Part shown: positions 1,717 to 64,000 of the stretch, piece by piece
Position numbering within the stretch: position 1 is the first letter of the stretch
How the letters are laid out: every line of letters starts with the position of its first letter
Assembly: GCA_025093555.1 (NCBI GenBank)
Contig: JAIWNF010000081.1
Coordinates: 62,001-126,000 of the forward strand
Length of the DNA stretch: 64,000 nt
Source of the DNA: Circinella umbellata
Taxonomy: Eukaryota > Mucoromycota > Mucoromycetes > Mucorales > Lichtheimiaceae
Direction of reading: 5' to 3'
The notes under the pieces: model-generated
Databases searched by the model: none
What the model saw: the letters and a program-made list of their open reading frames with translations, nothing else
What the model was told of the DNA's origin: nothing
Position numbers and translations under genes: made by a program

Positions 1717-2575
1717 TATATTACCGGGAAAGAAAAAAAAAGCCTGATTTGTATGATGAGGATAAAGCTTGTTTGATGAGTAAAAAAGAAAGAAAGAAAA
1801 AAGCTCAGGTATAAGTAAATTATTTTGCTTAAATTCATAAGTTATGTATATAGTACGATATTGGATTTCATTATGCAAATATCAACATGCGAAATCATCT
1901 TACCAAGATGTTTCATATGCTTCAGAGTTGAATTTACTCACGCTACGTATAAAAAAAACAAACATACCTCTTATTTTACTTATTTGTTCTGTATCATTTT
2001 AGTAACAACTCAGCAAAAAAAAAAAGGAGAACATGATTCAGAAAGTTTGTATTACTTAAATCCATTTAACTTTAAAATTGAAGAAAGGAGCAAAAAAAAA
2101 AGTTATTTGAAAGTTATATAATAGGTACTAAAAAAATGACGACAAAATAAACTCGAATACGTGAATTCTAGTTTTTATAATATGTGAACCAGCCAAAGAA
2201 TAGTAATATGTCATAACATTGATATAAAGTATACATATTTTACTTGTTTATCAGTGGGTTATTAGTAGTTTGAACGTAAAAGGGTTTAGGATATATTATG
2301 TAATAGAATAGACCTAAAGATTTGGTGCTGAGTTTTTTTTTTTTGGAATTTGGCGCATGATGAATTATAAATTTATGCACCTTGGTTTGCATTTCGGTGG
2401 TTTAAAATCTAACCATCTTGCTTTGTTATAGTATTTTATTTCTTTGGCGAAAAGTATAAACTGTTCAGAAATGAAAGATATGATAGATATAAAAATATAC
2501 AAATATACACTACAACATGTTCTACTTTAAGCATAACACATGATGAAAGAAAACCCAACCTTGAATGATCAATTT

Positions 2576-2887
2576 ATCCCGTGCGATCAATGGGCTGTAA
2601 TTTTTGATGAGTAGATGCGATAATATGTGCTGGAGTTGTTAAAGGATTTACTTTGGTCAAAAACTCGTGTTTTACACCAACCTTTAGTTCTTATCGAAAC
2701 TCTTCAATGGAATTGAGAAATGGCACTTTATCAAATGAATTTGTGATTCTACAATTCTCTATCTCTAATAACGAGCATAATACTCTCTAGCATTCTATAA
2801 TTACCTGAGTAATTTCTGCTCTGCACTTTGGATAATGTTAAGCGTAGTATCAATGAGTTCGACACTGTATTCGTCGCAAAGTGGGAC
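2576..2887 (-). pseudogene. Decayed exon of unknown gene, copy 1
   Basis: Read on the minus strand, this follows an acceptor-like TTATTCTTGTCAG and encodes a segment beginning VPLCDEYSVELIDTT, closely matching the better-preserved copy at 7677-8006. The two in-frame stops of the other copy are present here too. In addition a 13-bp deletion shifts the frame just after them, and the end has further small changes. I do not recognise the family. It is more degraded than copy 2 and certainly not functional as read. Confidence 0.55.
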
Positions 2888-3482
2888 CTGACAAGAATAA
2901 AACCGATTTCAATTACTTCTATGTTATTACCAACATTTACTTTACTATGTTATTTAATAGTAGTAATTAAGCTAATATAACTGTATTTAATAATTATGCT
3001 CATGTACATATACTGCTAAAATATGGCCGTTTTTTCTACTATCAGAAAAAGCTCTTTTTTATCGTACATGATATATATAGATATATTCATCTATTAGTAT
3101 ATGTTGTTTGCTAACAAGTAAAAGTATATATGATATATATCAGTTCGGAGAAAATGTTGATGCCATTTATTATACAATTATGATTAGTAAATAAGCACCA
3201 TGATTATTGAGTTAATATATATATTTTTAGCTAAAATAATTACGGCTCCTGTACTAGTACTTTTATTTTAAGCAGTGGATCATCACAGTAAATATAAAAA
3301 GCCATTAAGTAAAATTTAAAAGGATTTACAATGAAGTAATGGTTTTAATAGGGTTGTTTAAAAGAAATTAGTAATAATATATATACAAGATAAATAATTC
3401 TTGACACTTTGTTTATCCAAGCCTAATAATCTGGTCCTTGATGTATTTCTATTATATGACTTCAACCCATGAGTATATCCTT

Positions 3483-4847
3483 TCAGCTACCTATCATTTT
3501 GTACAATGCACTCTATTAGTAGTTGATCTTTTTTTTTTAATTTATATCATCGTAACAAAAATGAATTTACTTTTTTTAACTTGCAAGTTATTTATACTTT
3601 CGCTTGATTTTTAAAAGTAATGAATGTAGTTTATAATTTTTGCAATGAATTTCGTTAGCATTTGTTCCACCATAATAACAAAAAATGAATCCACTTTCTT
3701 ATTTTTTTTTCAACTTACTATCCATTATGTAGCCTACAACCCTTTGGGAAGAAATCAATTGATGTTATTTAATAACCTTTTTTACAATAAATCTGTATTT
3801 TTCTATTTTTGTGCTATTCTTAAAAAACGTCTTTTATTTTATAACTTACGGCCTATTAAATTATAATCCACACATTTGGTTTTTTAAGTTATGGGTAGCA
3901 TTTATAATTTTTCATAATGAATTCTGTCAGTATTTGTTTCTTTTTTTTTTTGTGCCATTGTAATAAAAATTAACTACACCGCCTTTTTATTATTATATTT
4001 TTTTTTAACTTACAACCTATTCGTATTCAACCCATTGGAGAGGAGGTTTGAAGTAATAGATGTTATTTATGAAATCTGTTAGTACGTATTTGTTCTTTTT
4101 TTTTGCGCTATTATTAAAGACATTGACTCCACTTTTTTTTGTTTTATAACTTACCAGCTATAAATATTCAACACATCGAGTTTTGAAGTAATATAAATAA
4201 TATTCATATAATATTTTTTTACAGTGAATTCTTCTGTTAGTACGTATCACTATTTTTTTTGTGCCATTATAAGAGGCATTCACTTCACTCCCTTATTTAA
4301 TTACTTACGGTTACCTAGTTATAACCAACACATTTGGTTTTACAGTAACGAGTGTGATTTGTATTTTTTAACAGTGAATTCAGTTAGTATTTGTTCTTTT
4401 TTGTGCCGATATAAGAGGCATTCACTTCACTCCCTTATTTAATTACTTACCGCGGCCTAGTTATAACCAACACATTTGGTTTTACAGTGACGAGTGTGAT
4501 TTGTATTTTTTTAACAGTGAATTCAGTTAGTATTTGTTCTTTTTTGTGCCGATATAAGAAACACCGACTGCACTATCTTATTTTTGTTTTACTTACAACC
4601 TATCCATAATCCACCCATTTGGTTTCAAAGTGATGGATATTATATTTACATCGAATTTTAATTTAGTATTTGATAATTTTTTTCGTTCCTAGAACTTCAC
4701 TCCCTTATATTCTAACTTACCACTCTTTACAGAACTGTCAGCATTACTGTCAGTATGTTGAATGTCACCAACTGGTTGAGCAATACTGTTGTATGCTGCG
4801 GAAAGAACCAAAACAAAGATGGATAGGATAATAGTAGAATATTTCAT
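3483..4847 (-). CDS. Microexon-built small secreted peptide, copy 1
   Basis: Product unknown. Exon 1 (4847-4721, 127 nt) starts MKYSTIILSIFVLVLSA, a classic hydrophobic signal peptide, followed by a hydrophilic pro-like region rich in D, S and Q. Nine further exons follow, eight of them microexons, at 4599-4597 (GTT), 4456-4451 (GCCGCG), 4314-4309 (GTAACC), 4157-4155 (CTG), 4016-4014 (GTT), 3852-3850 (GCC), 3733-3719 (15 nt), 3579-3571 (9 nt), and a last exon from 3490 ending at TGA 3485-3483. Every microexon is a multiple of three and phase 1. Each is flanked by AG and GTAAGT (GTAAAT for the 9-nt exon), and most introns contain TACTAAC, TACTGAC or GCTAAC. Joined, they add about 18 residues: GCRGNPGCRY then IMDIKKSS. 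The whole product is about 60 residues with two cysteines near the C terminus. The structure is inferred from sequence without transcript support. Alternatives are exon skipping or a relic ladder of splice sites. Confidence 0.62.
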
Positions 4848-4908: not shown

Positions 4909-4919
4909 CTTTATATAGT
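4909..4919 (-). promoter_or_regulatory. TATA box of microexon peptide gene copy 1
   Basis: Minus-strand ACTATATAAAG lies about 62-72 bp upstream of the ATG at 4847, preceded by a purine-rich run (minus-strand complement of the CCTCTTATCCCTCTCCCCC tract). It is conserved at the same distance in the second copy. A well-placed TATA box suggests a regulated or strongly expressed gene. Confidence 0.6.
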
Positions 4920-6250
4920 CCTCTTATCCCTCTCCCCCTTTTTTTTTGTCTGTGTTGAAAAATATCATATACTATTAAATGGTATAAACAACAAGAATGC
5001 AGGGGCTTAAAGCAGTATCTCAACAAATCAAATTACATTTTCATAATCTGAAACGTTAATGCAAGTAGCTTATTAAAAAATATTTTTAGGTGTGTTCTCT
5101 GTTTATATGCACTAAATCAAATTTGGAAAAAGGGACCTTTCGGGTGTATATATATATGAGGCAGAGGTTTTTTCGACCCGGGTAATATTATGTCTTTACT
5201 TTTAATCTTGATTTATTTCAATGTTATAGGTGTCACTATTTATTTGTTTTATCTTTTATCTTAGAATAACATTAGCTGTAATGTAGTTGTCTATTCCTCT
5301 CTCCTACCCCCTTAATATACTAATCTAACTTTTTCTCTCTCTAAAAGGTTCCGTCAACGCTATATATTATTCTCTTTACCCATATACACTTCTTGCTCAA
5401 AGTATAGTAAGGAAGAAGTGACCTCGAGGCGTAGATCAATTAAACCTTTCATCTTCTTTTCCAAACTCTGGTTCTTTTTCCTTCTAAGGTTTCTAACCAC
5501 GTACTTCATAACAGTATTAAATAGTCAATCCCAGTTTATCCAATATAGATAAATAAGCCCATTGTAACAACAGAAGCGATGCATTTTCATGCATGCCATT
5601 TATAAATATTTAAAATTATTCATATTGTGTATAACAGCTCCATTTATTTTGTGAGATTGATTTGAGAATATCAATAATAAATATTTGAAAGGTTTATTTG
5701 AAGAAAACAAAATAACAGAAAGGATACATGTGGATATTGATTGGGTAAACCTTAAAAAGAAAACCATAGATAAGCGTTCTAAATAGAACCCCAAGCAGAT
5801 AACCGTAATGATAAAAGAAATTAAATAGTGAAGGGAAAAAATTTATTTGCTAGTTTAGAAATACGTAATGCTGAAGACGTTAACTTTTGTAAACATAAGA
5901 GAATAGAGAATATAGAATAGGATTGGTGTTTTCTATTTCGCGTGCTTCTTCATTAACACAAAAGAGAATGTAGACCATTTTTACCTTCGAAATTCGAAGT
6001 CGACACTAATGGTATAGATCCTGGAACTTACTACTATAAGAGTTCTTTATGATTCATTATTCTGTATCCTCTATCTAGACATATGGTGGCTCATCGCACG
6101 ACACACCTTTCATTGTAATTTTGCTAAATTCCAAATCACCATGCAGGATAACTTTATGATTCTAAATTAGTTTTTGATTTGATGTCGAAAGATATAATAT
6201 TGATATTACTTTTTATTAAATTATATTTACTATATATTTTTATATATAGA

Positions 6251-8632: not shown

Positions 8633-9862
8633 TCAGCTACCTGTCATTTTGTACAATGCATTCTATTAGTATTTGACCTTTTTTTTTTTAGTTGTATCAT
8701 CGTAACAAAAATGAACTTTACTTTTTTTAACTTGCAAGTTATTTATACTCTCACTTGATTTTTAAAAGTAATGAATGTGGTTTATAATTTGTGCAATGAA
8801 TTTCGTTAGCATTTCTTCTACCATAATAACAAAAAATGAATCCACTTTCTTATCTTTTTTTCAACTTACTATCTTTATGTAGCGTACAACCCATTGGGAA
8901 GAAATCAATTGATGTTATTTAATAACCTTATTTTTTACAATAAATCTGTATTTTTCTATTTTTGTGCTATCCTAAAATAATGTCTCTTATTATATAACTT
9001 ACAGCCTATTAAATTATAATCCACACATTTGGTTTTTTAAGTTATGGGTAGCATTTATAATTTTTCATAATGAATTTTGTCAGTATTTGTTTTTTTTTTT
9101 TTTGTGCCATTGTAATAAAAATTAACTACACCGCCTTTTTATTATTATATTTTTTTTAACTTACAACCTATTCGTATTCAACCCATTGGAGAGGAGGTTT
9201 GAAGTAATAGATGTTATTTATGAAATCTGTTAGTACGTATTTGTTCTTTTTTTTTTTTGCGCTATTATTAAAGACATTGACTCCACTTTTTTTTGTTTTA
9301 TAACTTACCAGCTATAAATATTCAACACATCGAGTTTTGAAGTAATATAAATAATATTCATTATAATATTTTTTTACAGTGAATTCTTCTGTTAGTACGT
9401 ATCACTATTTTTTTTTGTGCCATTATAAGAGGCATTCACTTCACTCCCTTATTTAATTACTTACCGCGGCCTAGTTATAACCAACACATTTGGTTTTACA
9501 GTGACGAGTGTGATTTGTATTTTTTTAACAGTGAATTCAGTTAGTATTTGTTCTTTTTTGTGCCGATATAAGAAACACTGACTGCACTATCTTATTTTTG
9601 TTTTACTTACAAACTATCCATAATCCGCCCATTTGGTTTTAAAGTAATGGATATTATATTTACATTGAATTTTATTTAGTATTTGATAATTCTTTTTTTG
9701 TTCCTAGAACTTCACTCCCTTATATTCTAACTTACCACTCTTTACAGAACTGTCAGCATTACTGTCAGTATGTTGAATGTCACCAACTGGTTGAGCAATA
9801 CTGTTGTATGCTGCGGAAAGAACCAAAACAAAGATGGATAGGATAATAGTAGAATATTTCAT
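8633..9862 (-). CDS. Microexon-built small secreted peptide, copy 2
   Basis: Paralogue of the gene at 3483-4847. Exon 1 (9862-9736) encodes the same signal peptide and pro-region. Microexons: 9613-9611 (TTT), 9470-9465 (GCCGCG), 9311-9309 (CTG), 9167-9165 (GTT), 9005-9003 (GCT), 8872-8870 (ATA), 8730-8722 (9 nt), then a last exon from 8640 to TGA 8635-8633. The predicted tail is VCRAGCYIKKSS. The two cysteines and the IKKSS end are kept, but five codons fewer are present because the GTAACC module is absent and the 15-nt exon has become 3 nt. Its TAG acceptor is mutated to TAC, and a downstream AAAG|ATA|GTAAGT replaces it, preserving frame. The open frame and matched phases in both copies argue for function, though no transcript evidence is available. 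Confidence 0.6.
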
Positions 9863-55394: not shown

Positions 55395-57170
55395 ATGGAT
55401 GGAATATATGTGTTATTATGGTGGTTCACCACAAATTGGCCAATTACTCATAATAAATATAAACATAGAACAGAAGTTAAACCTCTTCATTTTATAAATG
55501 ATATTAAAATAAAATTAGAAAATAAAATTGGATATGTAGCAGTTTCTTTTTCTTACAATGCTTTATGGAGTAAATGAATATCTAGGACCATATAGTGAAT
55601 TAGAAAAAGAATTAATTTTGCTTTATCATCTAGTATGTGGTGAAATAGGACATTTTATGAGTAGATATATGAAGTATTCATCTTTTTATAGTGTTTATAA
55701 AAGATTTTAGATTGATAATTATAAAGTATTAAATAAAAAAGTTGATGGGTTTTTATCAACAATGTTTTCATCTCCTAAACTAAGAATATATAGTTCATTA
55801 AAACGAAATCCTAAACAATTTAAGCATGTAACATTAATTATAGATGGTCATGATTCTAAAATTAATTATGTTTATACTAATATTAAAACAGAGGGATTCA
55901 ATCCTTAATAATTAAATTTACTGTAAACAGTAATTTAATTATATTAAGACTTTCATGTCAAGCGTTCTAGGAATTTAAAATTTCATTTTAAATTATCTGA
56001 ACTAATAAGTTGTCGTCCAAGTATTGCTAGACTTAAAGGTTATATAATTAATTAAAATTAATTATTATAAACCTTTTGGCTCCTTTTTTCTTTATTTAGA
56101 TTTATAAAATTAAAAAAAAGTCTAAAAATTAATTTTTTTTTTTATTTTTTATAATTCACCATTATTCTTAATAATTAAATGTTAATTAAAATTACATTTT
56201 AATATAACTTTAACTGTTAAGAATTAATTCCCAGAAAAGCTATTTTCATATAAATTAAAAAAACCTGGATGTAGAACCTATATTATTTGTGATATTAATG
56301 AAATGATTTTGTGGGTATCTAATAGTGAATTTTGTGGTGAAAGTTCTGATGGTAATATTATGTTTTTAAACATGGAATTATATCAAAATTATAGATTACA
56401 GACTGTGTAGCTATGAATGGTGGTTATTCTTTATTTTTAAATCAATTTTATAAAATTTCAGAAGAAAAAGGAAAAACATATATCCCATTTGAAAAATTAT
56501 TAGTGTTGATTTAACATATCATGAAACACATCATAATGATATCTTTGGAAGTTTCAGATCTATTGTAGAAAATCAATTTTCAGTTATAGGTAGTAAATTC
56601 AAGAGATTTAATAATAATCATAAGGTTATTAAAATGTATGATAAAAAACATTATAATCTACAATTTAAATTAGTTTATTTAATGAAAAATATTCAGAAGT
56701 TGGTAGTTGACTTTGATATAAATATACAATCACATTATAAATTGTGGGAAACTAATAATTTTGATTTTTCTATTGAAGAAAAGATGATAGATATAGTTAT
56801 ATCAAATGAAATAAAAGTAAAAGAAAAAACAAAAAGACTTGAAGAATTACAACAAAAATTATTATCAATGGAATTACATGATAATCTATATATTCAAAAT
56901 ATTAGTGATGACGATATAGAACTATACAAAAATAAATCTGATTCTGAATTAGATATTCCAAAAGAATATAGTGGAAATAAAAGAAAAAGAAAGAATGGTA
57001 AAAATAAAGTTACTGATATAAATATTCTAAGAAATAATGATAAAACAAGATATGAAATTGAAAAATTTTTAATTAAATGGAAAGATTATGATGATGAACA
57101 TAAGAGCTGGATTCCTATTAATAATTTTAACCAAAAAGAAATGTTAAATATGTATGCTAATCAACATTAA
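55395..57170 (+). pseudogene. PIF/Harbinger-like DDE transposase with chromodomain-like tail (broken)
   Basis: Coding blocks follow each other on the plus strand: MDGIYVLLWWFTTNWPITHN (55395), LRIYSSLKRNPKQFKHVTLI then IDGHDSKINY with the first catalytic-type aspartate (about 55780-55870), SELISCRPSIARLKG (56000), KKPGCRTYIICDINEMILWV with SNSEFCGESSDGNIMF (56250-56370), and HHNDIFGSFRSIVENQFSVI leading into a clean 178-codon frame at 56634-57170. That frame ends FLIKWKDYDDEHKSWIPINN, a chromodomain signature (IKW..Y....SWIP). Stops and frameshifts divide the blocks, and hairpin-forming AT-rich sequence lies at 55911-56230. The DDE fold family and Harbinger-type assignment rest on motif order only. 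Confidence 0.6.
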
Positions 57171-61280: not shown

Positions 61281-64000
61281 ATGAACAGTCCCTCATTTCT
61301 TGTAGTGTTTACTACAATGGCTAAAACTAGTATGTGTATCCGTAAACTAAGAAAACCATATCATCGACCACCTACTGATGAGCAATGTACTAAGTTACAA
61401 CAACAAACTGAAGAAACCAATGGGATCACAAAGAGACCTCACGCAGAAGAAGCTAATGGTAACAATATATTTTATAAGTTTAATGTATTCTGTAAATTGC
61501 TATAATAACTATTTTTTTTGTAATATAATACAGTAAGTATTCGCTAAACCGGTACTCATTAAGCTGGTATTTCGCTAAACTGGTAGTGTCTCTCATTTAT
61601 TTTTTATATACTTAGTAAAATACCAGTAATTCGCTAAACCGGTATCTGGTGAACCTTTCCAAATATTTACCGGAATTATTTTAGTCTTTTTTTCTTATAT
61701 ATGTGTGTATATAATAATATTAATTTTTTATTGGTTCTGTGATCAAATCGGATGACATTTTTTATTGTTTTATTAGATTTAATTGGTAAAATCAGTAATT
61801 CGGGCTTGGTTATATGTTATCTCAGCTCTTTCCTTTGTTTCTAGAAGCTTAATTTTTTTTCGCACCAAGTAAAAAATATCCAGATCGTCCTTGTCGTCTA
61901 GGGAAAGTCTGTCAACAAATTGCTGATAGTATTGCCTTTTTTCCGCCAATTTGAGATGGAGACTTTTTTCTTCTTCCTCAATTTCTTCCTCTACTTGTTC
62001 TTCATCATCTACTATATAACTGTGTTGTTAATAAAAGTTATTTCTAGTTATTGATACAACTGCTCAACATACTCGATATTAATACATACTTTGTTGTAAA
62101 TTCATCAACTGATCGAAACGCTGATCCATTGTCCAAATTTCATGAATGGCATCATTTTCATTATTAGAAGATAGGTCGACTGTATCAAGACTATCTTCGT
62201 CTGTACCAACTGTTAGAAGATGATTATTGATTTGTTCATTTAAATCAAGATCATCCTCCAAAATAGTGGCTTCTTGTGCAGCAACTTCTTCTTCAGAAAC
62301 TGTATTAGACATAAGGCCAGTATGAAGAAAACAATTTTTTATTGTTTCAGGTGTTATTCTTTCCCATGCCATTTTTGACCAATCTAGAGCCTGTTTCAAT
62401 TTGATATCATAAAGTTTTTCAAGCTTCCCTTCATTATATCTAATAGTTGCCTGGTGGAATAGCATGGCACTAGATATATAATAAATATGGAAGTTATTTA
62501 AACAGAAAACTGATGATTGAAATGTGTATAAAAGTATACTATTAAGATATCATATGTACCGGTATCTCTTTTTGAATGCAGTAATGATTCCAGCATCGAG
62601 GGGTTGGTAGTGCGAAGTAGTATTTGGCGGGAGCATGCAAATTTCAATGTTTTCTAGTTCCATGTCCAAATTTTTATGTGAAGGAGCATTGTCCATCAGC
62701 AAAAGAACTTTTTTACCTTTATGAGCAGTGTATACAGCATTGTCAATTTTTCTTAAGATTTTTCTAAAAATCTCTTTTGTCATCCATGTCTTTGTGTTGC
62801 TATAGTACTTGTATGCATTAGAAACTATAGACAAAATAATTGAATTCATAAATAAAAACTTTAAATTTTAACTATGGCCCGAATATATTTAGTTACTTTT
62901 TCCATTAAATCCTTGTCCAGTTTCATATCGACCAATATAATAGGGAGAGATTCGATGAGATCTATCAGCATTACAAACACAAACAACAGTAATTCGATTC
63001 TTATCGACTTTGAGACCACCAATTGACTGTTTAGATATAGTTCGATGTGGTACTTGCTTATAAAAGAGCCATGTCTCATCAATATTATAGATGCGTTCAG
63101 GTGGAAACTCAGAAATCTTCGCTTTCACAGCATTGAGGTCTTCTTGAATGCTATCAGCATCAACCTCCACCTCTCCAGATTCACCATGGATACGACGAGA
63201 TTTAAAACCATACCGCCCCATAAACTTAATTAACCACCCTTTGGAAAACTGGAAATCCTCTGGTACTTCAAGCTGGCGACGCCTACACTGGATTTTGGCT
63301 TGGTGTATAATGCTTGCCATGGAGATAGGTTGACTTGCATTAGACATCTCAGTAACATACTGGGCAAGTAGTAACAATTCAAGTTCTGGGGGTGCAGGTT
63401 CTCAAATTTTTTTGGCATTAAGATGGTGTTCGGTCATTGCCATATATTCTTTTTTTTTCTTCAAAATATCAGATATAGTTTGTTGACCGGGTAATTTATC
63501 CAGGTTAAATTCGTCTTTAGCCCATCGAGCAAGTTCAGATTGAGTTATTCTTTCTTTTTGCTTTTTCAAACAAATAGCAAGTTTTTGGCAGTTTGTCAAT
63601 GCAGATTTTTTGCCCATTGTTGATAATAATTAAGAGTGAATAATTAAATATGGTAAAGTAAGAATAAGATAAAGGAATCAAAACGATCTTTATTAAACAA
63701 ACTGCCATCTTTTTTTATATCTTATATAGCAAAATTCAATCATAGTTATTCTTCTAGTATATTCTACATATTACTATATACTGAGTTTCAATTCGCTAAA
63801 CCGGTACAAATCCTCACATATATTAGGTACTGGTTTAGCGAATACTTACTGTATATTGAAGAAGATATAATGAATGCTGAAGAAAGTAGAGAAGAGAATG
63901 ATGCATCTATTATCTATAGCAGATCAGAATATGGTAACTAGTAATGCCAAAAAATTTTATGTATAAAGTGTTCGTTATACTTATTATTTACCATTGCTAT
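61281..64000 (+). CDS. Partial gene of unknown function interrupted by a pogo element in its first intron
   Basis: Exon 1 (61281-61458) encodes MNSPSFLVVFTTMAKTSMCI and a hydrophilic stretch ending HAEEAN, then a GTAACA donor. After the transposon, exon 2 (63862-63933) continues in frame (G plus AA gives Glu) with DIMNAEESREENDASIIYSR and ends at a second GTAACT donor. The gene then runs off the window. Without the 2.3-kb insertion the intron would be about 80 nt, normal for this genome, with the acceptor GAAG only about 8 bp from the insertion point. Family not recognised; start could be a later ATG (codon 13). Moderate confidence that these two exons belong together. Confidence 0.5.
61531..63851 (-). 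mobile_element. Nearly intact pogo/Tigger-type DNA transposon
   Basis: 2321 bp bounded by 25-bp terminal inverted repeats with one mismatch, each beginning CAGTAAGTATTCGCTAAACC, and flanked by TA on both sides (61529-61530 and 63852-63853), the target duplication of the Tc1/mariner-pogo superfamily. Extra copies of the ATTCGCTAAAC-GGTA core occur near the ends (about 61570, 61631 and 63791), probable transposase-binding subterminal repeats. It contains one transposase gene on the minus strand. Confidence 0.93.
61779..63617 (-). pseudogene. Pogo/Tigger transposase with CENP-B-type DNA-binding domain, one in-frame stop
   Basis: Four minus-strand exons (63617-62897, 62824-62560, 62469-62090, 62011-61779) join to 533 codons including the stop. 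The N terminus (MGKKSALTNCQKLAICLKKQ) and FSKGWLIKFMGRYGFKSRRI are the two helix-turn-helix parts of a CENP-B/Tc5-type DNA-binding domain. The DDE_1 catalytic core has YNIDETWLFYK (first Asp), VLLLMDNAPSHK (second Asp) and LPPNTTSHYQPLDAGIITAF (third Asp), followed by KKRYRAMLFHQATI, TPETIKNCFLHTGL and an acidic coiled C terminus. The only visible lesion is a TGA (codon 72, about 63402-63404) where CGA would give Arg in the KKI-EPAPPE stretch, compatible with one CpG transition. So it is recent but probably inactive unless the stop is bypassed or is a read error. Confidence 0.85.

Follow-up and report, generated by a model that had tools for sequence, protein, structure and literature searches.

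Candidate arrays of single-codon exons in small-peptide genes of the fungus Circinella umbellata

The closest described kind of gene to the one reported here is the micro-exon gene (MEG) of schistosomes and tapeworms. MEG exons are given as 6-81 bp in length, mostly 15 bp, and the abstract of the same paper gives a range of 3-81 bp (PMC10526429). A MEG has been defined as a gene of seven or more exons, of which no fewer than half are micro-exons (shorter than 70 nt and divisible by three), including a run of four or more (PMC7653826). A second group, the bicycle genes of aphids, was reported to have about 17 exons on average, which start at codon position 2, and one aphid gene, megacycle, to contain more than 100 micro-exons (PMC9168663). 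Single tiny exons with RNA support were also reported, such as those of 1 nt in CYP621A of Fusarium and of 1 nt in APC11 of Arabidopsis (PMC12940212, PMC4674806). Xlr2 of Trichoderma has a single very small exon. A fungal micro-exon switch, as presented in PMC11121469, consists of a single exon.

We describe herein a gene of Circinella umbellata that very probably belongs to a family of apparently secreted small-peptide genes, in which the mature peptide would be encoded by tandem units of an intron and a micro-exon, the latter usually of 3 nt. MEGs resemble this family in that numerous short symmetric exons come after one for a signal peptide, and the models of the gene, of its second copy and of four long relatives all fall within the operational definition of a MEG (PMC7653826). 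However, the micro-exons of Circinella are nearly all single 3-nt units in runs of up to 43, the introns are short (~135 nt) and homologous to each other whereas those of MEGs are long, and the host is a fungus. The resemblance is one of described features. Bicycle genes share with the family many small internal exons of the same phase and apparently secreted products. The internal exons of the family also start at codon position 2, with junctions in phase 1 throughout, and a common phase alone is no sign of kinship. On the other hand, bicycle genes encode insect salivary proteins and, compared by description, are not presented as having single-codon exons in the portions of PMC9168663 used here. 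The genes CYP621A, APC11 and Xlr2 each contain one lone micro-exon, as opposed to an array that codes for the mature protein.

The preliminary description of this locus knew of no fungal example of a gene built mostly from such exons. None was found in a search of the open-access literature either, with the caveat that single fungal micro-exons, down to 1 nt, have been published (PMC12940212, PMC11121469). Nor did the same search turn up any account of single-codon exons in runs.

The window gene and its second copy

The window, that is, the whole stretch of 64,000 nucleotides that was analysed, holds two copies of the gene on the minus strand (contig C191), WA and WB, which are modelled with eight and seven micro-exons, respectively. 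Here and below, micro-exon calls are models read from genomic DNA, not transcripts. WA runs from 4847 to about 3490, according to a direct reading of the strand and a listing of splice-like sites. Its first exon (4721..4847; 127 nt) contains the ATG, a signal-peptide-like stretch and a pro-region, and ends in phase 1 before GTAAGT; the start, here as in the rest of the family, apparently encodes a signal peptide when read by eye. It is followed by GTT (4597..4599), GCCGCG (4451..4456), GTAACC (4309..4314), CTG (4155..4157), GTT (4014..4016) and GCC (3850..3852), which are 3, 6, 6, 3, 3 and 3 nt long, and by a seventh micro-exon of 15 nt (3719..3733), the acceptor of which is uncertain. The terminal exon and 3' end are placed at 3300..3490, with an ATAG acceptor at 3491-3494 and an arbitrary lower bound; a CATNGGGTTGAAGTCATAT-like stretch there is common to the relatives.

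The mature part had been described as the product of eight micro-exons. Seven of these (3, 6, 6, 3, 3, 3 and 15 nt) stand as units of the form AG, a multiple of three nucleotides and GTAAGT, and exon 1 and all seven have the junction phase, phase 1, that had been assigned to them. The eighth, given as 9 nt, does not stand: the sole donor-like site of this degenerate unit (3585..3602) is GCAAGT, and the acceptors give an exon of 18 nt (3602-3585) or 12 nt (3596-3585). The frame stops inside either reading, after ...YIMDTKV or ...YIMDI, and ends with ...YIMDSS if the unit is skipped. The two cysteines of the tail were recovered (GCRGNPGCR); the basic KKSS end was not.

WB extends from 9862 to about 8640, roughly 5 kb from WA, to which it is 92% identical over most of its length. 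Its first exon (9736..9862) is identical at 127 of 127 nt, and its array (8736..9613) is modelled with micro-exons of 3, 6, 3, 3, 3, 3 and 12 nt, the last two being weak. Essentially, WB is WA minus one unit: the third unit of WA is missing in its entirety, a clean loss that takes two codons away. The counterpart in WB of the 15-nt micro-exon measures 3 nt and has a weak AAG acceptor, and for that reason the last two units of both copies are uncertain. Between the copies, 3 of 44 micro-exon bases and 29 of 972 intron bases differ. Moreover, units 2 and 3 of WA are 94% alike outside their exons, yet the exons read GCCGCG and GTAACC. These figures are suggestive only of diversifying selection on the exons, the numbers being too small.

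A gene nearby shares 85% identity with Circinella minor. Elsewhere in the window, by eye, a frame at 56493-57170 (plus strand) resembles the end of a chromodomain-type integrase, and another at 62079-63401 (minus strand) a DDE transposase. A tRNA scan of the window returned none.

Relatives and exon lengths across the genome

Genome-wide searches covered 210 contigs, which total 50,779,861 bases. The window gene, used as a DNA query against the fungus's own genome, gave 35 matches, and queries with the first exon or with 3 kb from the largest array returned the same loci. The family comprises eight loci with micro-exon units and one ordinary two-exon relative. Besides WA and WB, there are L009 (C147) with 18 modelled micro-exons, all of 3 nt; L010 (C177, minus strand) with 23; L011 (C177, plus strand) with 43, all of 3 nt, in an array at L011:2547-8574; and L012 (C113) with 11. 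These six genes contain 110 modelled micro-exons in total, and the unit profile finds successive units along the full length of the arrays. The genes share one plan: a signal-peptide-like first exon ends at a donor in phase 1, the units follow (between 11 and 43 of them in the four long relatives), and a short final exon contains the stop. The last intron of L009 measures 1,099 nt.

The remaining two of the eight loci show visible damage or rearrangement. L013 (C153) has a stop in exon 1, and over 1 kb of other DNA breaks up its array, as it does that of L014 (C101). Unit-free stretches of about 1 to 1.7 kb interrupt the arrays of L009 (~4912-5887), L013 (~2180-3875) and L014 (~2010-3113), and are perhaps insertions. 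Lone matches were also seen: a 108-nt match to the window gene at L015 (C112:612023-612130), where the splice-site listing contains no array, and a weak match to exon 1 at C178:820900-820962 (E 0.077). Both are possibly relics.

The two-exon relative (L026, at C8:39755, minus strand) differs from the arrays in having one normal intron and one normal second exon. The intron is 160 nt long, lies in phase 1 and occupies the same place as in the family; the second exon is of normal size and codes for a cysteine-rich domain that had no match in a Pfam search. Its first exon is of the same kind as the family's, and also occurs in its close relatives P0090 and P0092 of Circinella minor. Upstream of the start codons of this gene and of WA, L009, L010, L011, L012 and L014, a similar 5' leader can be recognised by eye, with a TATA-like run followed by a AATCAACTACATCTTTCTTCATTCAGCAATAAAACATCATC-like stretch, which suggests that their expression may be under common control.

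How constant is the length of the micro-exons? As modelled, 101 of the 110 measure 3 nt, six measure 6 nt, two 12 nt and one 15 nt, a count that is not free of selection, as the 97 units used to build the unit profile had 3-nt exons to begin with. If one simply takes the AG nearest to each donor and does not demand multiples of three, the exon is 3 nt in 97 of 110 cases and 6, 12 or 15 nt in nine; the remaining four contain an AG themselves. Because of that seeding, a pattern search of the whole genome serves as the independent test of length. Two neighbouring 3-nt exons 110-140 nt apart occur at 64 places, all in family loci, versus none for the reversed control, and the pattern thus exceeds chance. 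The same pattern with neighbouring 4-nt exons occurs nowhere in the genome, with 6-nt exons at a single place, WA, and with 3-nt exons separated by gaps of 45-75 nt nowhere. Single sites of the form TTAATAGNNNGTAAGT number 43, versus 6 in the control.

Splice signals and predicted joined products

A typical unit consists of an intron of about 135 nt with a strong GTAAGT donor, a TACTAAC-like branch site and a TTAATAG-like acceptor, and then 3 nt. The introns average 134.7 nt (sd 10.0, n=110), and their lengths are not multiples of three (44, 30 and 36 in the three classes modulo 3). The donor is GTAAGT in 100 of 116 cases, and the acceptor ends in TAG in 99 of 110. A branch motif was recognised in 90 of the 110 introns, where it precedes the acceptor by 68.8 nt on average. 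In the part of these 90 introns that lies between the two (5,648 nt), AG was seen 14 times versus 228 expected, GA 204 times. In the 5' part of the introns, AG is not depleted (463 versus 488 expected). Selection for the use of each acceptor predicts just such a depletion. The idea of non-coding RNA hosts in the introns was dropped, as Rfam gave no match in the window or in L009-L012.

The units are mostly 60-70% alike. Within L011, flanking introns are most similar when offset by 22 units (0.686, versus a mean of 0.630 and an sd of 0.017 over offsets), and so are residues (first among 38 offsets, a value that none of 20,000 permutations reached); a DNA search gives a self-match of 2.7 kb at 70%. 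The array holds a 22-unit block duplication, each half of which codes for about 22 residues. In the two halves, exon change is 0.38 per site versus about 0.31 for introns; here as between WA and WB, micro-exon bases are not slower to change than intron bases. Taken together with the tandem, homologous nature of the units and the damage to L013 and L014, this lack of extra conservation would be in line with a non-coding tandem repeat or a decaying pseudogene family, in which splice-like motifs were kept by recent duplication alone. Units that are 60-70% alike are, however, far from recent, and yet AG plus donor is identical at 162 of 168 positions (96%) in the halves of L011, the flanks of which are ~69% identical. 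The exclusion of AG between branch site and acceptor and the lack of an Rfam match in L009-L012 also speak against such a repeat, which we find scarcely credible.

We return to the reading of the arrays as coding exons. With local codon usage derived from window genes (1,737 codons in six segments; one further segment lacked an open frame and was dropped), phase 1 scored best in all five arrays tested, with summed log-odds of 18.3 versus -32.0 and -44.2. It won narrowly in L009 (-1.6 versus -1.9), and its score in WA was negative. Phase 1 is free of stops in the four long arrays (L009-L012), as is phase 0; phase 2 has six stops in L011 and two in L010. When the exon order was shuffled, 1.95% of 2,000 trials were free of stops, versus 0.25% with random bases. 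The joined products end with ...DRRDSGVQKNCGFCSGEGCKLKPACRKNP in L009, ...PVPVPIHVPVNICGNDVIGILNPACVDQNQGTQ in L010, ...LGAIRAQIHEIKAQIRVSVGDQKTELRAHLHKIATQIRNALIEALRD in L011 and ...RLCNALQQHTILCH in L012.

The joined product of L010, with its 23 micro-exons, matches the Pfam chaplin family PF03777 (ChpA-C) with an E of 5.4e-9 and 36.2 bits, versus a cut-off of 21. The match covers residues 25-64, with 25-39 coming from exon 1 and 40-63 from micro-exons. The other four joined products tested did not match this family, nor did any of nine shuffled exon orders of L010, and a six-frame search of the unspliced genome with PF03777 returned no matches, so that no ordinary chaplin gene was found elsewhere in the six frames. 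That the match appears only after joining is the strongest single argument for joining in the modelled order and phase. No NCBIfam family was hit by the L010 product, and the whole product found no homologue in the protein collection. Its likeness to the chaplins of Streptomyces (PF03777) consists in a score above the Pfam cut-off, and unlike them it comes from a fungal gene with the domain spelled by 23 micro-exons.

These results also bear on whether exon 1 might be joined straight to the terminal exon, with the units as splice-like decoys or relics and a product of exon 1 plus a few residues. Skipping the whole array keeps the frame open in all four long genes, and the protein models deposited for Circinella umbellata at two family loci (P0091 and P0093, found with the family profile) contain no micro-exons, P0091 reading from exon 1 into intron sequence. 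Such skipping would leave unexplained why exons are fixed at 3 nt, why a phase-1 frame stays open for up to 43 codons, why every unit excludes AG and why exons spell a Pfam domain, and we consider it improbable. The arrays are, in all likelihood, real arrays of single-codon exons. The central claim of the preliminary description, of a gene with its mature part encoded by symmetric phase-1 micro-exons, some of 3 nt, is supported, and the relatives are far stronger evidence for it than WA itself: two of them have 18 and 43 unbroken 3-nt exons, and to these are added the Pfam domain after joining, the exclusion of AG and the exact exon length across the genome.

As to what the peptides may be, secreted surface or defence-type peptides appear to be the likeliest class, because of the chaplin-like member, the cysteine-rich members and the signal-peptide-like start. 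We would weakly suggest surface-active or cysteine-rich secreted peptides, one of them chaplin-like; a surface role as such is less likely than not. An amphipathic helix had been expected for the L011 product and was rejected, as its helical moment is unexceptional (1,212 of 5,000 shuffled orders reach it). A larger moment at 160 degrees was noticed post hoc and is not counted as evidence.

Proposed growth and splicing of the arrays

The one two-exon relative, with its phase-1 intron, suggests that the arrays may have grown within a pre-existing phase-1 intron. The two-exon relatives also point to an origin in this lineage. Growth and shrinkage would proceed by unequal exchange of whole units, which would keep the frame, and point changes within units would alter single residues. 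This model is based on visible traces, namely the one-unit difference between WA and WB and the 22-unit block duplication of L011.

Because every junction is in phase 1, every codon in the run is split by an intron, and would take its first base from one exon and the other two from the next. Exon definition would have no room on an exon of 3 nt, so that the introns would have to be recognised and removed one by one. Most simply, removal would proceed from 5' to 3'; with every step the exon would lengthen by 3 nt and would come to end at the next GTAAGT. The near-invariant GTAAGT would then offset the missing contribution of the exon to donor pairing.

Every unit is symmetric in the models, so that any subset can be skipped in frame, as had been pointed out earlier. 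Real arrays could then act as a generator of diversity, with units skipped in many combinations to give a range of peptides from one gene, set apart by single residues, as was proposed for the micro-exon genes of flatworms. Some weak donors (the 16 of 116 that are not GTAAGT) would fit this idea, which is compatible with single-codon exon arrays as such. However, the donors are nearly uniform, and both the chaplin-like product and the 22-unit repeat of L011 preserve the order of exons, which suggests that inclusion is the rule. We therefore regard combinatorial skipping as unlikely.

These genes probably represent tandem repeats with a monomer made up of one codon and one intron. The peptide would be a direct readout of unit order, with every codon split by an intron, would evolve in frame by gain, loss and block duplication of units, and would take up to 44 sequential splicings to yield about 50 residues. 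If transcripts confirm this, the spliceosome would be able to handle exons that fall short of the footprint of its factors, and to do so repeatedly, up to 43 times in one transcript. Intron definition and ordered splicing would then be directly testable in a small natural gene. The arrays would show how single codons of a peptide can be reshuffled with the frame intact, and current annotation would be overlooking an entire class of secreted peptides, as is suggested by the models deposited for two of the loci.
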